DNA of 36,528 nt from an uncultured Roseovarius sp. (GTDB lineage Bacteria; Pseudomonadota; Alphaproteobacteria; Rhodobacterales; Rhodobacteraceae): positions 1 through 36,528 of the forward strand of contig CAKZYL010000053.1 in assembly GCA_937884705.1 (NCBI GenBank). The letters are read 5' to 3'. The translations under genes were made by a program, and so were the position numbers. Of the stretch, positions 30,311-36,528 are shown one piece after another. The first letter of the stretch is position 1; each line of letters begins with the position of its first letter. The notes beneath the pieces are model-generated. The model made no database searches. It had not been told where the DNA came from and saw nothing but the letters and a program-made list of their open reading frames with translations.

Positions 30311-31176
30311 TGTTGACCTAACATGATAAGCCCATTGCGCTGAATTTTCGGGTCAAGCGTTATCACCGCCTCGTAAAAGATCCGACCGATCCGGCAGGCA
30401 TTCTTGTTATTGGCGCGGGCTATGTCTTGCATGGCGGCACGCAGACGCACCGCATCCGGCTCTTCGTCGAGTAGCGCTTCGACCCGCGCGTCAATCGCTG
30501 CAGCAACGTCTTGCATGGTCGCCGTGGACAATGCGACAGGCCCGCGGGTTGCGCCCAGTTTGGCCGCCTTGAATTCAATTCTGTAGAACTCTCGTAGCGC
30601 GTCCGTCTCAAGCCGGGCGGCGACCCGTGACATCGCATCGGCATAGGCCTTGTCAGAATAGGTTCCGCGCATGGCCTGGCCGCACTCCCGGCTGGGCAGC
30701 GCATTGATCATGGCCTGCTCAACTGAGTAGTAGTATCGCAATTCCACAAGCGGCAAATGTCCCATACCGCGGGCCACCATGGGCCAGATCAGACCCTGCG
30801 GATTCACCTCGAAACTGGGGTCGGTATAGGCGGCAATCACCTGATCTGCGATAAACCCTGCGATGGTGGGATCTTTGTAAAACGACCCCGCCTGTGCCAC
30901 CGCCAGCTCTAGGTTATCCCCCGAAAACCCCTGTTTTTGCAGATCCTCGCGAATGGGCATCGCGGAAGGCAGCTCCCCCAGAATTCGGATCATTTCAGCG
31001 CGGTTCACGCCGACATCCCTGTTCTGAGCTGAAAGCCCATCGGGCACGCCAGCCGCTACGCAAAGCAAAAGCAGTGTCAAACTCAGATAAAGCAGGCGCG
31101 GCACATGGTTCTCCAGACGGTCAGCCAGAAGAAGTCTAGGCGGGTCCTTCGGCAAAGGCCAAGGGTCATTTGGCAT
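30307..31176 (-). CDS. Hypothetical exported/membrane-anchored protein
   Basis: Likely start [17 protein letters not shown] at 31176, N-terminal TM ([17 protein letters not shown]); GTGA overlap with the downstream YcaQ-like gene. Confidence 0.65.
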
Positions 31177-31290
31177 GGTTTGATCACCTTTTGCGGCATT
31201 GGGCCCAGACATTTGTTTTTGACGCACTGGCGTGGTGACAAACGACCTGATATCCACGTGCCTGACGAGTTTTGCCAGGCCCCTAAGACC

Positions 31291-32118
31291 ATGAGCGCCA
31301 CCGCCAAGAAAACAGCCCCCCTCCCCGATGATATTGTTGCGATGAAAGGGAAAGCCCCGATCGTTAGCCTGACAGCCTACACCACGCCCATGGCACGGCT
31401 GATGGATGAGGCCTGTGACTTTGTGCTGGTGGGGGATTCCGTGGGCATGGTGCTGCACGGCATGCACTCCACCTTGGGCGTGACCATGGACATGATGGTG
31501 ATGCATGGCAAAGCGGTGGCACGGGGTTTGTCGCAAGCGATGCTTGTGATCGATATGCCCTTTGGATCCTACGAAGAAGGACCAGATCAGGCTTTTCGCA
31601 ACGCCGCGACGATCATGCGGGAAACCGGAGCGGCGGCAATCAAGCTGGAAGGCGGCACGCATATGGCCGAAACCATCGCGTTTCTGGTCACACGGGGCGT
31701 GCCCGTCATGGCCCATATCGGGCTCACACCGCAATCGATCAACACGCTGGGCGGGTACAAGGTGCAGGGCCGGGACGATGCAGGTGAGGCGCTTTTGAAG
31801 GATGCCCACGCGGTTGCGGATGCAGGCGCGTTTTCTATTGTGTTGGAAAAGGTGCCAGCCACCCTTGCCGACAAAATCACAGCTGAGATCGCCATTCCGA
31901 CAATAGGAATTGGCGCGGGCGCCGGATGCGACGGACAAATCCTTGTTGTGGATGACATGTTGGGGCTCTTTACCGCGTTCAAACCCAAATTCGTCAAACG
32001 CTTCGCGACACTGGGCGATGACGCCAAAGTGGCCATTGAGGCCTATGCGGAGGAGGTGCGCGCCCGGAGCTTTCCCGCGTCCGAGCACACTTTCAGCGAC
32101 AAGGCCCCATCGAGGTGA
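31291..32118 (+). CDS. panB: 3-methyl-2-oxobutanoate hydroxymethyltransferase
   Basis: Start [14 protein letters not shown] at 31291; MLTAYT-like [51 protein letters not shown]. Confidence 0.97.
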
Positions 32119-32972
32119 AGGACGCGGTGACGCCACCACCGATCGTGCGCCAACTGGCCGAGCTGCGCGCCATGACAGCCGGTTGGCATCTCGCCCAGGA
32201 AAGCGTGGGCGTCGTGCCCACCATGGGCGCTTTGCATGACGGGCATCTCTCGCTTGTTGCGGCCGCAAAGAAACTCTGCGATCGGGTGATCGTGACAATT
32301 TTCGTGAACCCCAAACAGTTCAACAATCCCGAAGATCTGGCCAACTATCCGCGGACTGAGGCTGAAGATGCCAAGAAGCTCGCGCGGTTTGGCATCGACG
32401 CGGTCTATGTTCCGGAGCCTGATCAAATTTACCCCAATGGTTTCTCGACCACTGTTTCGGTCGCTGGCCTCACCGACGTCATGGACGGTGTGCATCGGCC
32501 CGGGCATTTCGACGGCGTGGCGACAGTGGTGACAAAGCTCTTCACGCAAAGCACGGCGACGGATGCCTTCTTTGGCGAAAAAGACTTCCAGCAACTGCAA
32601 GTGGTGAAGCGCTTAGCACGCGACTTGGATTTGCAAATCACCGTGCATGGTTGCCCCACCATCCGCGATATCGATGGGCTTGCTCTGTCTTCGCGCAACT
32701 TGCTGCTGTCTGACCGCGCCCGCACCAAGGCGTGCCGTCTCTTTGAGGAGATGGAAAAGATCGCGGAGGGGCTCAATGCCGGTGAGGCTTTTGAGGATCT
32801 GCATGCGGCCGCGGTAAAAGCGCTCGAGACTGCAGGGTTCACCAAGGTGGAATATCTCGATCTGCGCGCGGCAGATGACCTGACCGAGCTTGCTGCGCCC
32901 ACGCGTGAGGCGCGGCTCTTCGCGGCCGCATGGCTGGCGGGCGTGCGGTTGATCGACAATATCGCCGTCTAA
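32115..32972 (+). CDS. panC: Pantoate--beta-alanine ligase
   Basis: GTG start overlapping the panB stop (GTGA); [61 protein letters not shown]. Confidence 0.97.
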
Positions 32973-33044: not shown

Positions 33045-33881
33045 ATGAAAGCAAGCAGGCTGATCAATCTGGCAGATTATCCAATCCATCAGCAAGGGCC
33101 TGAGCGAAATGCCGTCCTTGCCCGAGTTCGGGCAGATCTCGCCAAAGACGGCTGTGCGGTCCTCAAGGGGTTTCTGACTAAAGATGGCATCGACGCCCTG
33201 ACCGAAGAGGCCGACGGGGTGGCACCGCGTGCGCATCGCTCCTTCAACCGAACGAACCCCTATTTCACGCAGGACGACCCGAACCTGCCGGAAGATGACC
33301 CCCGCCGCCGGTTTTACGACCGGTCCAACGCATTCATTCCTGCCGACAATTTTGCCAAAGACGGCCCGCTGCGGGGCGTTCATGATTTTGAGGGCTTCGA
33401 CGCGTTTATCCGCGACTGCCTTCAAGAGGCGCATTTCCACCGCTACGCCGATCCGCTGGCCGATGTGATCGTGAACATGGCCGAAGAGGGCAACGGTTTT
33501 CCCTGGCATTTCGACACCAACAATTTCACCGTCACGCTGGCCATTCAGAACGCCAATGACGGCGGTGCTTTCGAATACGCGCCCGGCATCCGAGAGGGCG
33601 ATGAAAACTTTGACGAGGTGGCCCGCGTGCTGGATGGCACGTCCGACAAGGTCACCGTACTGGAGCTCGAGCCGGGCGATCTTCAGATCTTCAGCGGTCG
33701 CTACTCTCTGCATCGCGTGGCACCGCTCAAAGGGAAACGCCCGCGCTATGTCGCGATCTTCTCATATGTCGAGAAGCCGGACATGGTTGGCAGCCCTGAG
33801 CGCACGCAGCAACTTTACGGACGCACCCTGCCCATTCACTGGGAACGCGCAGGGCGGCGGGCGGACGCCTATCTCGACTAG
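33045..33881 (+). CDS. Fe(II)/2-oxoglutarate-dependent dioxygenase (possibly HalD/BesD-related)
   Basis: 278 aa; HxD in FPWHFDTNNFTVTLAIQ, distal FSGRYSLHRVAPLKGKRPRYVAIFSY. Confidence 0.7.
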   Translation: MKASRLINLADYPIHQQGPERNAVLARVRADLAKDGCAVLKGFLTKDGIDALTEEADGVAPRAHRSFNRTNPYFTQDDPNLPEDDPRRRFYDRSNAFIPADNFAKDGPLRGVHDFEGFDAFIRDCLQEAHFHRYADPLADVIVNMAEEGNGFPWHFDTNNFTVTLAIQNANDGGAFEYAPGIREGDENFDEVARVLDGTSDKVTVLELEPGDLQIFSGRYSLHRVAPLKGKRPRYVAIFSYVEKPDMVGSPERTQQLYGRTLPIHWERAGRRADAYLD

Positions 33882-35392
33882 GTCGCCATTTCCTCGCTCA
33901 GGAATGCCTCGGGGTCATCCACTTCTTCCAGCCGCTTGCCTTTGATCCTCCAGAACCGGTTGCCGACATTGCGCAGGAAACTGCGGTCGTGGCTGACCAG
34001 AAGACAGGCGGCGCCGTGGGTGATCAGCTCTTCCTCCAGCGCTTCCTGGCCTTCGATATCCAGATGGTTCGTGGGCTCGTCCAGCAAGTAGAAATTGGGC
34101 CTCGCAAGCCGCAGCATGAGCATCGCCAGCCGCGCCTTCTGACCGCCGGAAAGCGCATCGACCTTGGTGTTCTGCATCGTCATTACGATCCCTGCCCCGG
34201 CCAACACGCCCCGCGCGCGCTGATCGCCGATGTCAAAACGTTCTGTGATCAGCAACATGGGCGTCTGTCCAGGCGTCAACTGCGTCAGATGCTGGTCAGA
34301 GACACCGGGGATCACCGATGGGGCCGCGCGGATGGGTCCGTCTGGATCTTCAAAAGCCCGCGCCACCAGATTGATGAGCTGCGTTTTACCCGTCCCATTG
34401 GCCCCCAGCAGAACCACGCGTTCCCCCGGTGAAATCCACTTTTTCCCCGTCCGGTAAAGCAACCTATCGTCCGGCGCGCTCACCTCTACATCGGGCAGAG
34501 TGAGCAGCGCCTTGGCATGGGTTCCGCTATTGGTGAGCTTGATATCGCCCGCGCTGCGTTCCTGATGCGCAGGCCGGGCCGCAGCCTCCATTTTCTCCGC
34601 CCGCTCGGTCAGTTGCTTGGTCTTGATCAGCAACAGGTCCGAGCCGGAGTTGATGCCAACATTCTTTAGCTTCGCCGCCTGCCGCCGCAGTGTTTTGGCC
34701 TTGTTGAGGTCATTGGCAAAGCGCCGTTCATCTGCCGCATCCGCTTCGTCCAGCGCCTGACGCGCCTTCGTGAAAGGCAGTGGAAAACTGCGCGATCTTT
34801 CAGCCCGCAGAAACAACGTGCAATTGGTCGTGGCATCCAGAAACGCCCGGTCGTGGGACGTAATGATCAACGCAGTATCGCGCGGCAACGCAGCCAACCA
34901 CTCCTGCAGCTGACCAATGCGGCGCAGATCCAGATGGTTGGTGGGCTCGTCCAACATCAGCACGTCGGGTTCCAGCACCCATTCGGCGGCCAGCATCGCA
35001 ATACGCTGCCATCCGCCACTGAGCTCTGCCAAGGGCTGGTGCTGCAATTCATAAGGCATCTGCAACTCACCCAAGACCACATCGACGCGCCAGCTTTCAT
35101 AATCCGCTTGCTCTTCGGGCAACGCGGCGAGGGTCAGTTCATAGGGCGTCAGCGCCTGTGTCCCCTCTGGCAGCGTCTGGCGCACATAGCCCATGCGCAG
35201 TCCGCGCCCACGGGTGATCTCGCCATGGGTGGCATCGGCCTGCCCCGTCAGGCAGTTCAAGAGCGTGGATTTTCCGCGCCCATTTGCGGCCACAAGGCCA
35301 AGCCGGTCGCCCTTGGTGATGGTCAGGGTGAGGTCAGTGAACAAAGGCTCACTCAGAGTGATGCCTAAGGATTGGATGTGTAGAAGTGTCAT
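33878..35392 (-). CDS. ABC-F family ATP-binding cassette protein
   Basis: Start MTLLHIQSLGITLSEP at 35392; two Walker A (GLVAANGRGKST, LLGANGTGKTQ), two signatures (LSGGWQ, LSGGQK), no TM domain. Confidence 0.94.
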   Translation of the reverse strand: MTLLHIQSLGITLSEPLFTDLTLTITKGDRLGLVAANGRGKSTLLNCLTGQADATHGEITRGRGLRMGYVRQTLPEGTQALTPYELTLAALPEEQADYESWRVDVVLGELQMPYELQHQPLAELSGGWQRIAMLAAEWVLEPDVLMLDEPTNHLDLRRIGQLQEWLAALPRDTALIITSHDRAFLDATTNCTLFLRAERSRSFPLPFTKARQALDEADAADERRFANDLNKAKTLRRQAAKLKNVGINSGSDLLLIKTKQLTERAEKMEAAARPAHQERSAGDIKLTNSGTHAKALLTLPDVEVSAPDDRLLYRTGKKWISPGERVVLLGANGTGKTQLINLVARAFEDPDGPIRAAPSVIPGVSDQHLTQLTPGQTPMLLITERFDIGDQRARGVLAGAGIVMTMQNTKVDALSGGQKARLAMLMLRLARPNFYLLDEPTNHLDIEGQEALEEELITHGAACLLVSHDRSFLRNVGNRFWRIKGKRLEEVDDPEAFLSEEMAT

Positions 35393-35441
35393 GTCTGTCT
35401 CAGCTATTTTGGGGTTACCGCTCAAAAAAATGGCGGCGAAA

Positions 35442-35487
35442 GGCTGATCAAGACACGCAGGTAGAAAGCGTCGTTATCAGATCAGCC
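35442..35487 (-). promoter_or_regulatory. Candidate leader hairpin 2 upstream of the ABC-F gene
   Basis: RNA arms GGCTGATC (35487-35480) and GATCAGCC (35449-35442); enclosed GACGC…GCGTGTC sub-stem; overlaps hairpin 1 by 3 nt. Confidence 0.5.
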
Positions 35488-35547
35488 CTGCAAACGGATC
35501 TGCAGGGCGTAACGGGGACCATGCTGAAGTCGGCGGATGATACGCAT
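35482..35547 (-). CDS. Candidate 21-aa leader peptide MRIIRRLQHGPRYALQIRLQG
   Basis: ATG at 35547, TGA at 35484-35482; upstream CAGGAGGG (35567-35560, long 13-nt spacing); hairpin 1 lies within its last codons. Confidence 0.35.
   Translation of the reverse strand: MRIIRRLQHGPRYALQIRLQG
35485..35508 (-). promoter_or_regulatory. Candidate leader hairpin 1 upstream of the ABC-F gene
   Basis: GCCCTGC (35508-35502)/GCAGGGC (35491-35485), perfect 7-bp stem, 10-nt loop. Confidence 0.5.
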
Positions 35548-35590
35548 GTTCAGCTTGTGCCCTCCTGTTGTGATGCGTTTCAACTGCTGC

Positions 35591-35620
35591 CTGATATGCC
35601 AATCGGCGGGTGTTTGGCAA
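35591..35620 (-). promoter_or_regulatory. Possible sigma-70-type promoter for the ABC-F leader
   Basis: TTGCCA (35620-35615) – 18 nt – TATCAG (35596-35591). Confidence 0.25.
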
Positions 35621-35689: not shown

Positions 35690-35779
35690 CAACTTCCGGA
35701 AGGCTTGTCTCTTCCGGTCCCTTGGGCAAAACGCCCGGGATCGCCCCCCACCAGCGAGTTTCGCCCGTGGGGGCGTTTA
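35690..35779 (+). ncRNA. Candidate small/leader RNA upstream of ffh
   Basis: Three consecutive stems: CCGGAAG/CTTCCGG (35696-35717), CTTGGGC/GCCCGGG (35721-35739), CGCCCCC/GGGGGCG terminator; promoter-like motif immediately upstream; no convincing ORF. Confidence 0.5.
35742..35779 (+). terminator. Intrinsic-terminator-like hairpin upstream of ffh
   Basis: CGCCCCCCAC (35742-35751)/GTGGGGGCG (35767-35775), one bulged C, followed by TTTA. Confidence 0.6.
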
Positions 35780-35843
35780 TGCTTTGAGCCGCTCTGCTTA
35801 TATTGGCAGGGCATCGTGACAACCGGCAAAGGAGGCCGCGCTG

Positions 35844-36528
35844 ATGTTTGAAAATCTATCCGAACGTCTCTCTGGCGTCCTTGATCGGCTGACGAAGCAG
35901 GGCGCGCTATCCGAGGATGACGTCAAAACAGCTTTGCGCGAGGTGCGCGTGGCGCTTCTAGAAGCGGACGTATCCCTGCCCGTCGCGCGCGAGTTCATCA
36001 AGAAGGTGCAAGAGCAGGCGACCGGCCAGGCCGTCACCAAGTCCATCACACCCGGCCAGCAGGTCGTCAAGATCGTGCATGATGCACTGGTGGATACTCT
36101 GACAGGTGAGGAAGACCCTGGCGCGCTCAAGATCGACAATCCCCCTGCCCCGATCCTGATGGTCGGTCTGCAAGGTTCAGGTAAGACGACCACCACGGCG
36201 AAACTGGCCAAGCGGCTAAAGGATCGCGACGGCAAGCGCGTGCTGATGGCCTCGCTCGACGTCAATCGCCCGGCGGCAATGGAACAGCTGCAGATCCTCG
36301 GCACACAGATCGGCGTGGATACGCTGCCCATCGTGAAGGGTGAAGACCCGGTCACGATCGCCAAGCGGGCGAAAACACAAGCCTCTTTGGGCGGTTATGA
36401 CGTCTACATGCTTGATACGGCAGGCCGTCTGCCCATCGACGAAGAGCTGATCAACCCTGCCGCCGACGTGCGTGACGTAGCGCCCCCGCGCGAGCCTCAG
36501 CTGGTGGTTGAAGGCTTGACAGGGAAGG
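35844..36528 (+). CDS. ffh: Signal recognition particle protein Ffh (5' part, truncated by window end)
   Basis: AAAGGAGG RBS then MFENLSERLSGVLDRLTKQGALSEDDVKTALREVRVALLEADVSLPVAREF; P-loop GLQGSGKTTTTAKLA; LDTAGRL. No stop, so absent from the ORF track. Confidence 0.96.
   Translation, partial: MFENLSERLSGVLDRLTKQGALSEDDVKTALREVRVALLEADVSLPVAREFIKKVQEQATGQAVTKSITPGQQVVKIVHDALVDTLTGEEDPGALKIDNPPAPILMVGLQGSGKTTTTAKLAKRLKDRDGKRVLMASLDVNRPAAMEQLQILGTQIGVDTLPIVKGEDPVTIAKRAKTQASLGGYDVYMLDTAGRLPIDEELINPAADVRDVAPPREPQLVVEGLTGK

Follow-up and report, generated by a model that had tools for sequence, protein, structure and literature searches.

The leader region analyzed here lies in a stretch of 36,528 nucleotides from an uncultured Roseovarius sp. 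(contig CAKZYL010000053.1), which is referred to throughout as the window. It is located between a gene for an ABC-F ATPase, starting at position 35392 and read from the minus strand, and a divergent ffh gene that begins at 35844 on the plus strand. The elements of the region, with the evidence on which each assignment rests, are as follows.

35560..35565, minus strand: Shine-Dalgarno sequence GGAGGG of the leader ORF (sequence)
35551..35553, minus strand: in-frame CTG, 7 nt after GGAGG, possibly the true leader start (inferred from the sequence and from homolog L154)
35482..35547, minus strand: leader ORF MRIIRRLQHGPRYALQIRLQG of 21 codons, with ATG at 35547 and TGA at 35484-35482 (sequence, frame conservation)
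35512..35520, minus strand: Gly-Pro-Arg codons, representing the G-P-[V/R] motif, proposed stall site (residue conservation)
35499..35508, minus strand: arm 1 (GCCCTGCAGA) (covariation of hairpin 1:2)
35485..35494, minus strand: arm 2 (TTTGCAGGGC), partner of arm 1 (covariation of hairpin 1:2)
35480..35488, minus strand: extension of arm 2 (GGGCTGATC), putative partner of arm 3 in the ON state (sequence, 2:3 partner-swap)
35442..35458, minus strand: arm 3 (GCGTGTCTTGATCAGCC), putative partner of arm 2 (ON) or arm 4 (OFF) (partner-swap tests, predicted fold)
35393..35406, minus strand: arm 4 (TAGCTGAGACAGAC), over the ABC-F ribosome-binding site (predicted fold, 3:4 partner-swap)
33878..35392, minus strand: ABC-F ATPase gene, 504 aa, two ABC domains (two Pfam ABC_tran stretches)

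The original prediction had read this region as a short leader ORF overlapping alternative hairpins, that is, as a ribosome-mediated attenuator of the ABC-F gene. The parts it named are all present on the minus strand: the GGAGGG tract, the ATG, the 21 codons and the TGA; the GCCCTGC/GCAGGGC hairpin, which can be extended to 10 bp if one G-U pair is included (35508-35499 with 35494-35485); and a second pairing of 8 bp, GGCTGATC (35487-35480) with GATCAGCC (35449-35442), which shares 3 nt with arm 2. What escaped notice at that stage was a fourth arm, lying over the ABC-F ribosome-binding site. Folding of the window's leader region gave -47.1 kcal/mol, compared with -37.1 kcal/mol in shuffles (z -2.6; 4/200 shuffles).

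Two other features of the window may be recorded. An Rfam ffh RNA (RF01793, 65.2 bits) occupies 35730-35781 of the plus strand, just 5′ of the divergent ffh gene, and contains the sole terminator-like site called in the intergenic region. Two adjacent ORFs at 31105-32972 (plus strand) resemble panB and panC of pantothenate synthesis by sequence alone.

The ABC-F protein scored 275.8 bits with the NCBIfam ribosomal-protection-like ABC-F model, under its cut-off of 380, and was far under the cut-offs of the Vga, Msr, Sal and Lsa models; no curated antibiotic-resistance ABC-F (ARE) family was matched above cut-off. Judged by these models, the protein cannot be assigned to any known resistance family. 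Its predicted structure (pLDDT 88; plasmid-record rows were excluded from the alignment used for prediction) has linker helices at 207-249 and 252-272, and the best fold matches were VmlR2 (top PDB match), human ABCF1, PoxtA, EttA, YbiT and Uup. The protein has the architecture that defines the ABC-F fold, a pair of ABC domains with a long helical linker between them, a hallmark which is not ARE-specific. Because resistance and housekeeping proteins are both among the fold matches, the two roles could not be distinguished.

Distribution of the leader and of the ABC-F gene

An initial exact DNA pattern returned 13 matches, seven of which looked like chance, so a covariance model was built from 60 sequences and run genome-wide. 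Orthologs of the ABC-F protein, mostly of 55-73% identity, were gathered from whole genomes, genome contigs and plasmids; a related-loci search with the ABC-F alignment caught mostly the general LDEPTNH motif and yielded five true orthologs. In the family set (397 genomes, about one per genus) the leader was found in 44 out of 44 genomes carrying the ortholog. Elsewhere in Alphaproteobacteria, where 289 class genomes were searched, eight of the nine ortholog-bearing genomes have it, and so do all of the plasmid-borne and Rhizobiales copies that were fetched. The element is therefore spread over Alphaproteobacteria and is not confined to Rhodobacteraceae. These counts come with the caveat that most of the genomes counted had also served to train the model; G425, G266, G127, G725 and G630 played no part in training.

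Every covariance-model match at E<=1e-6 belongs to this ABC-F gene, broken or contig-cut copies included. In the apparent exceptions, G127 and G725, this gene is truncated by the end of the contig, and in G266 the contig ends shortly after the leader. In G022 the gene is broken by a stop and the leader, matched at E<=1e-6, is kept, which suggests that loss of this ABC-F was recent. At this locus (L008, 850-2064) the interruption is an internal TAG, and the leader peptide and hairpin are still largely intact. Among 24 loci of other ABC-F genes no leader match better than E 0.09 was obtained.

The genomic surroundings differ among loci (ffh in the window, pSymA, a rimK-like gene in L002 and L004, and others), indicating that the leader travels with the ABC-F gene. 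Orthologs without the leader also exist: one is in G708, and in the same-genus loci L003 and L005 the ABC-F gene stands directly behind the rimK-like gene. At about 950-1500 of these two loci arms 1-3 and the peptide are absent and the ABC-F start region is kept, which makes them a natural leaderless control.

The ortholog itself is patchy, being present in 44 of 397 family genomes and in a few of the 60 in the window's genus. This resembles the distribution of resistance ABC-Fs by the criterion given in PMC6723617; protection of the ribosome from a drug is inferred. No matching Rfam family was found for the leader element, and no report of it was met with in the open-access papers searched (subscription journals and preprints were outside the scope).

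Conservation of the leader peptide and of the RNA pairings

Conservation of peptide and stems at orthologous loci was the check proposed together with the original prediction, and its outcome was clearly positive. Among 66 leaders the glycine and the proline are each conserved in 64, and the next residue is valine in 46 and arginine in 15 (V or R in 61/66). Arg or His often directly precedes Gly-Pro, and the motif stands constantly exactly four codons 5′ of arm 1. It could be supposed that the RNA structure alone is conserved and that the ORF is incidental; the N-terminus and tail of the peptide are indeed highly variable, and some leaders end within arm 1. However, the Gly and Pro codons have entropies of 1.63 and 1.20 bits at the third position against 0.11-0.23 at positions 1-2, and this freedom of third positions next to conserved first and second ones shows that the peptide is under selection. 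In all 66 sequences, moreover, at least 12 codons preceding arm 1 contain no stop in this frame (57 and 55 sequences in the other frames), and 53 of the 65 homologs scored have an SD-like tract no more than 18 nt from the chosen start. A purely structural role for this RNA is, in our opinion, very hard to maintain. By conservation, the element has the short leader ORF with its own SD that is expected of a translated leader; translation itself is inferred.

The 13-nt distance between the SD and the ATG had been named as a weak point. An in-frame CTG at 35553, found 7 nt after GGAGG in the window's clade (a Rhodobacteraceae subgroup), may account for it: in homolog L154 the only candidate start in frame between the SD and the motif is CTG, ATG, GTG and TTG all being absent, and this codon may be the leader start in the clade.

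Beyond arm 1 the peptide is dictated by RNA pairing. Ketogulonicigenium and Gemmobacter have APRLISRG/APRLTSRG in place of the consensus ALQxRLQG because both hairpin arms changed together. Several homologs have a shortened leader (..HGPRxAL followed by the stop) with both RNA arms retained, and in one Rhodobacteraceae subgroup the stop is inside arm 1 with the arms intact; since early-stop homologs keep both arms, the tail serves RNA pairing. A divergent leader is found at 3600-4000 of L047, with its stop in the loop and arms 3 and 4 reading ATTCTGCC/GGCAGAAT.

Two other modes of sensing were considered. Macrolide-dependent stalling at +X+ (R-X-R) is disfavoured, as the second Arg occurs in only 25 of 66 leaders; by geometry, an inference, a ribosome stalled there would fail to reach arm 1 by about 3 nt. 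An amino-acid attenuator was rejected, there being a single conserved Pro codon and no run of one amino acid.

Hairpin 1:2 is paired in 96% of cells, with 42 two-sided changes compared to 10.4 in shuffled data (0/500) and a covariation of 0.276 against 0.139 (0/500). The regular expression behind the training set biases pairs 43-48/65-70 of this hairpin; pairs 49-52/61-64 are free of it and also covary. At one 1:2 pair the state changed between UA and CG at least five times on a tree of 56 ABC-F proteins. Together with the presence of the leader in all 44 ortholog genomes of the family, the two-sided changes show that the element exceeds chance, and we regard it as practically certain that the leader element is real, conserved and functional-looking.

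For the remaining pairings own and swapped partners were compared; the sequences are related, and the p values are guides rather than exact. The 3:4 duplex was more stable with its own partner (-23.7 vs -19.4 kcal/mol, p 7e-8), as was its longest run (p 3e-7), and the control, the coding region just downstream, gave p 0.30. Arm 4 usually begins 8 to 20 nt 5′ of the ABC-F start. Arms 3 and 4 read CGGTCTG/CAGACCG in L164, GGGTCTG/CAGACCC in L162 and CTTTCGATCTG/CAGATCGAAAG in L169, and in many Rhizobiales copies part of arm 2 is repeated in arm 4 (GACCAGAG). The 2:3 duplex gave -19.3 vs -18.1 kcal/mol (p 5e-4), and p 0.04 outside the GGGC/GCCC bases; since these are nearly invariant, swap support for 2:3 is weak.

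The direction of the switch was followed in silico. With arm 1 masked, the ABC-F start became easier to open, by about 2 kcal/mol, in 55 out of 66 sequences (p 2e-8); the remaining 11 did not respond, and the mean change in accessibility is modest (about 2 kcal/mol). With arms 1 and 2 both masked no effect on opening of the start was seen (28/66, p 0.64). In the window the predicted fold shifts from 1:2 plus 3:4 to 2:3, leaving the ABC-F start single-stranded. By geometry, which is again an inference, 7 of the 10 nt in arm 1 would lie beneath a ribosome holding the motif proline in the P site.

These results bear on whether the leader acts, in the manner of vmlR and msrD, on intrinsic or Rho-dependent termination before the ABC-F gene. 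Such ribosome-mediated transcription attenuation has precedent in Firmicutes ABC-F genes (PMC9226507, PMC10314930), and genes repressed at the level of translation can be targets of Rho (PMC12121999). The T-run after arm 3 described in the original prediction does exist in the window; however, no homolog other than the window has it (1 of 66), none follows arm 4, and no terminator was called on the ABC-F strand of the window. Moreover, a stall 5′ of arm 1 would favour 2:3, so that a terminator formed by 2:3 would work in the wrong direction, and arm 4 is situated over the ABC-F start. A terminator as the main switch was rejected, the U-tract being private to the window; Rho as a secondary layer is not excluded. 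Transcription attenuation thus remains an unlikely account of the leader. Translational attenuation is preferred because the U-tract is unconserved and because 2:3 would form on stalling. The proposal of ribosome-mediated attenuation of the ABC-F gene was upheld in this altered form, with the terminator-type switch replaced by a translational one that fits better; stalling and the effect on expression are inferred.

Proposed mechanism and comparison with known systems

We consider it likely that an erm-type translational attenuator governs the ABC-F gene in the following way, there being no experimental data and both stalling and expression being inferred. In the absence of a stalled ribosome 1:2 would form, and arm 3, left free, would take arm 4 as its partner and so occlude the ABC-F ribosome-binding site (OFF). 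A ribosome stalled at the G-P-[V/R] codons would cover arm 1, allowing arm 2 to pair with arm 3, so that arm 4 is freed and ABC-F can be translated (ON). One standing at the leader stop codon would cover arms 1 and 2, and the ABC-F start is predicted to stay closed. The model is built on the observed conservation and fixed spacing of the motif, the covariation of 1:2, the co-variation of 3:4 (weaker for 2:3) and the predicted direction of the switch; that ribosomes stall at the motif, and what triggers this, is inferred only.

The trigger, likewise by inference, is most likely a ribosome-targeting antibiotic countered by the ABC-F protein. Autoregulation dependent on ABC-F is a serious rival, which concerns the trigger only and can be combined with the same switch: stalling would be intrinsic to R/H-G-P-V/R and relieved by ABC-F, so that low ABC-F gives more stalling and hence more ABC-F. 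The motif resembles RAPP-like arrest motifs, which arrest the ribosome once their third residue occupies the P site (PMC10987492), a position that would here account for the coverage of arm 1 given above; ribosomes stalled at proline-rich and acidic sequences are rescued by ABC-F factors (PMC11381351, PMC11282234), and MsrD represses its own induction (PMC10314930). On the other hand, the fourth residue is V or R rather than P or G, arrest has not been shown, and the patchy distribution of the gene resembles that of a resistance gene. Intrinsic stalling as the trigger is accordingly a possibility that we hold only tentatively. Somewhat more speculative still is a self-tuning ribosome-rescue circuit, in which the leader would arrest ribosomes intrinsically and be at the same time a substrate for the very ABC-F that is under its control. 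If this were true, the cell would gauge unmet need for ABC-F directly, antibiotics being one cause of that need, and R/H-G-P-V/R would represent a new arrest-peptide family across Alphaproteobacteria.

If the attenuator model holds, an inducible and apparently undescribed system of ribosome protection is present in Alphaproteobacteria (rhizobia, roseobacters and relatives). The inducer that stalls the short peptide would be directly screenable and would reveal what the uncharacterised ABC-F protects against, and the leader would constitute a natural sensor and new stalling motif linked by strict spacing to an RNA switch.

In ermC-type attenuators four arms pair alternately, the leader runs over arm 1, and the target start is held in 3:4 and freed by 2:3. 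The ABC-F leader has the same four-arm logic, with mutually exclusive 1:2, 2:3 and 3:4 pairings and 3:4 over the target start, support for 2:3 being weaker. It differs from this family of macrolide-inducible rRNA methylase genes (PMC11264731) in its target, an ABC-F gene, in its alphaproteobacterial host, in having no known drug, and in its proposed stall motif, G-P-[V/R] as opposed to IFVI or +X+.

The vmlR uORF(MIN) and the msrD leader MsrDL are likewise short uORFs before ABC-F genes with ribosome stalling as the signal (inferred in our case), and the vmlR leader additionally has a start-sequestering hairpin (PMC9226507, PMC10314930). Their main switch is an intrinsic terminator, whereas between the alphaproteobacterial leader and its gene no such terminator was called or is conserved. 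Their peptides, of 3-6 residues, are unrelated to the conserved one of about 15-28 residues found here.

The RAPP-like (RQH) motif is defined as (R/Q/H)-(A/G/D)-(P/G/S)-(P/G) (PMC10987492). With ApdP, ApdA and SecM the leader shares Arg/His-Gly-Pro, and ApdP is alphaproteobacterial as well (PMC10987492), but the definition is not met: G-P is kept and the fourth residue is V or R instead of P/G. The leader, moreover, is without an evident N-terminal localization signal, being too short and basic, and its target is not sec or yidC.

The toiL-topAI uORF of Escherichia coli is an antibiotic sensor that unmasks a ribosome-binding site (PMC12121999), also in a Gram-negative host, and sensing by the ABC-F leader is inferred by comparison. 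Sequence and target are unrelated, and toiL works with stalling anywhere, while the ABC-F leader has a conserved, fixed spacing from motif to arm. Overall, ABC-F attenuators are already known in Firmicutes, and the leader described here is a new version in a new class.
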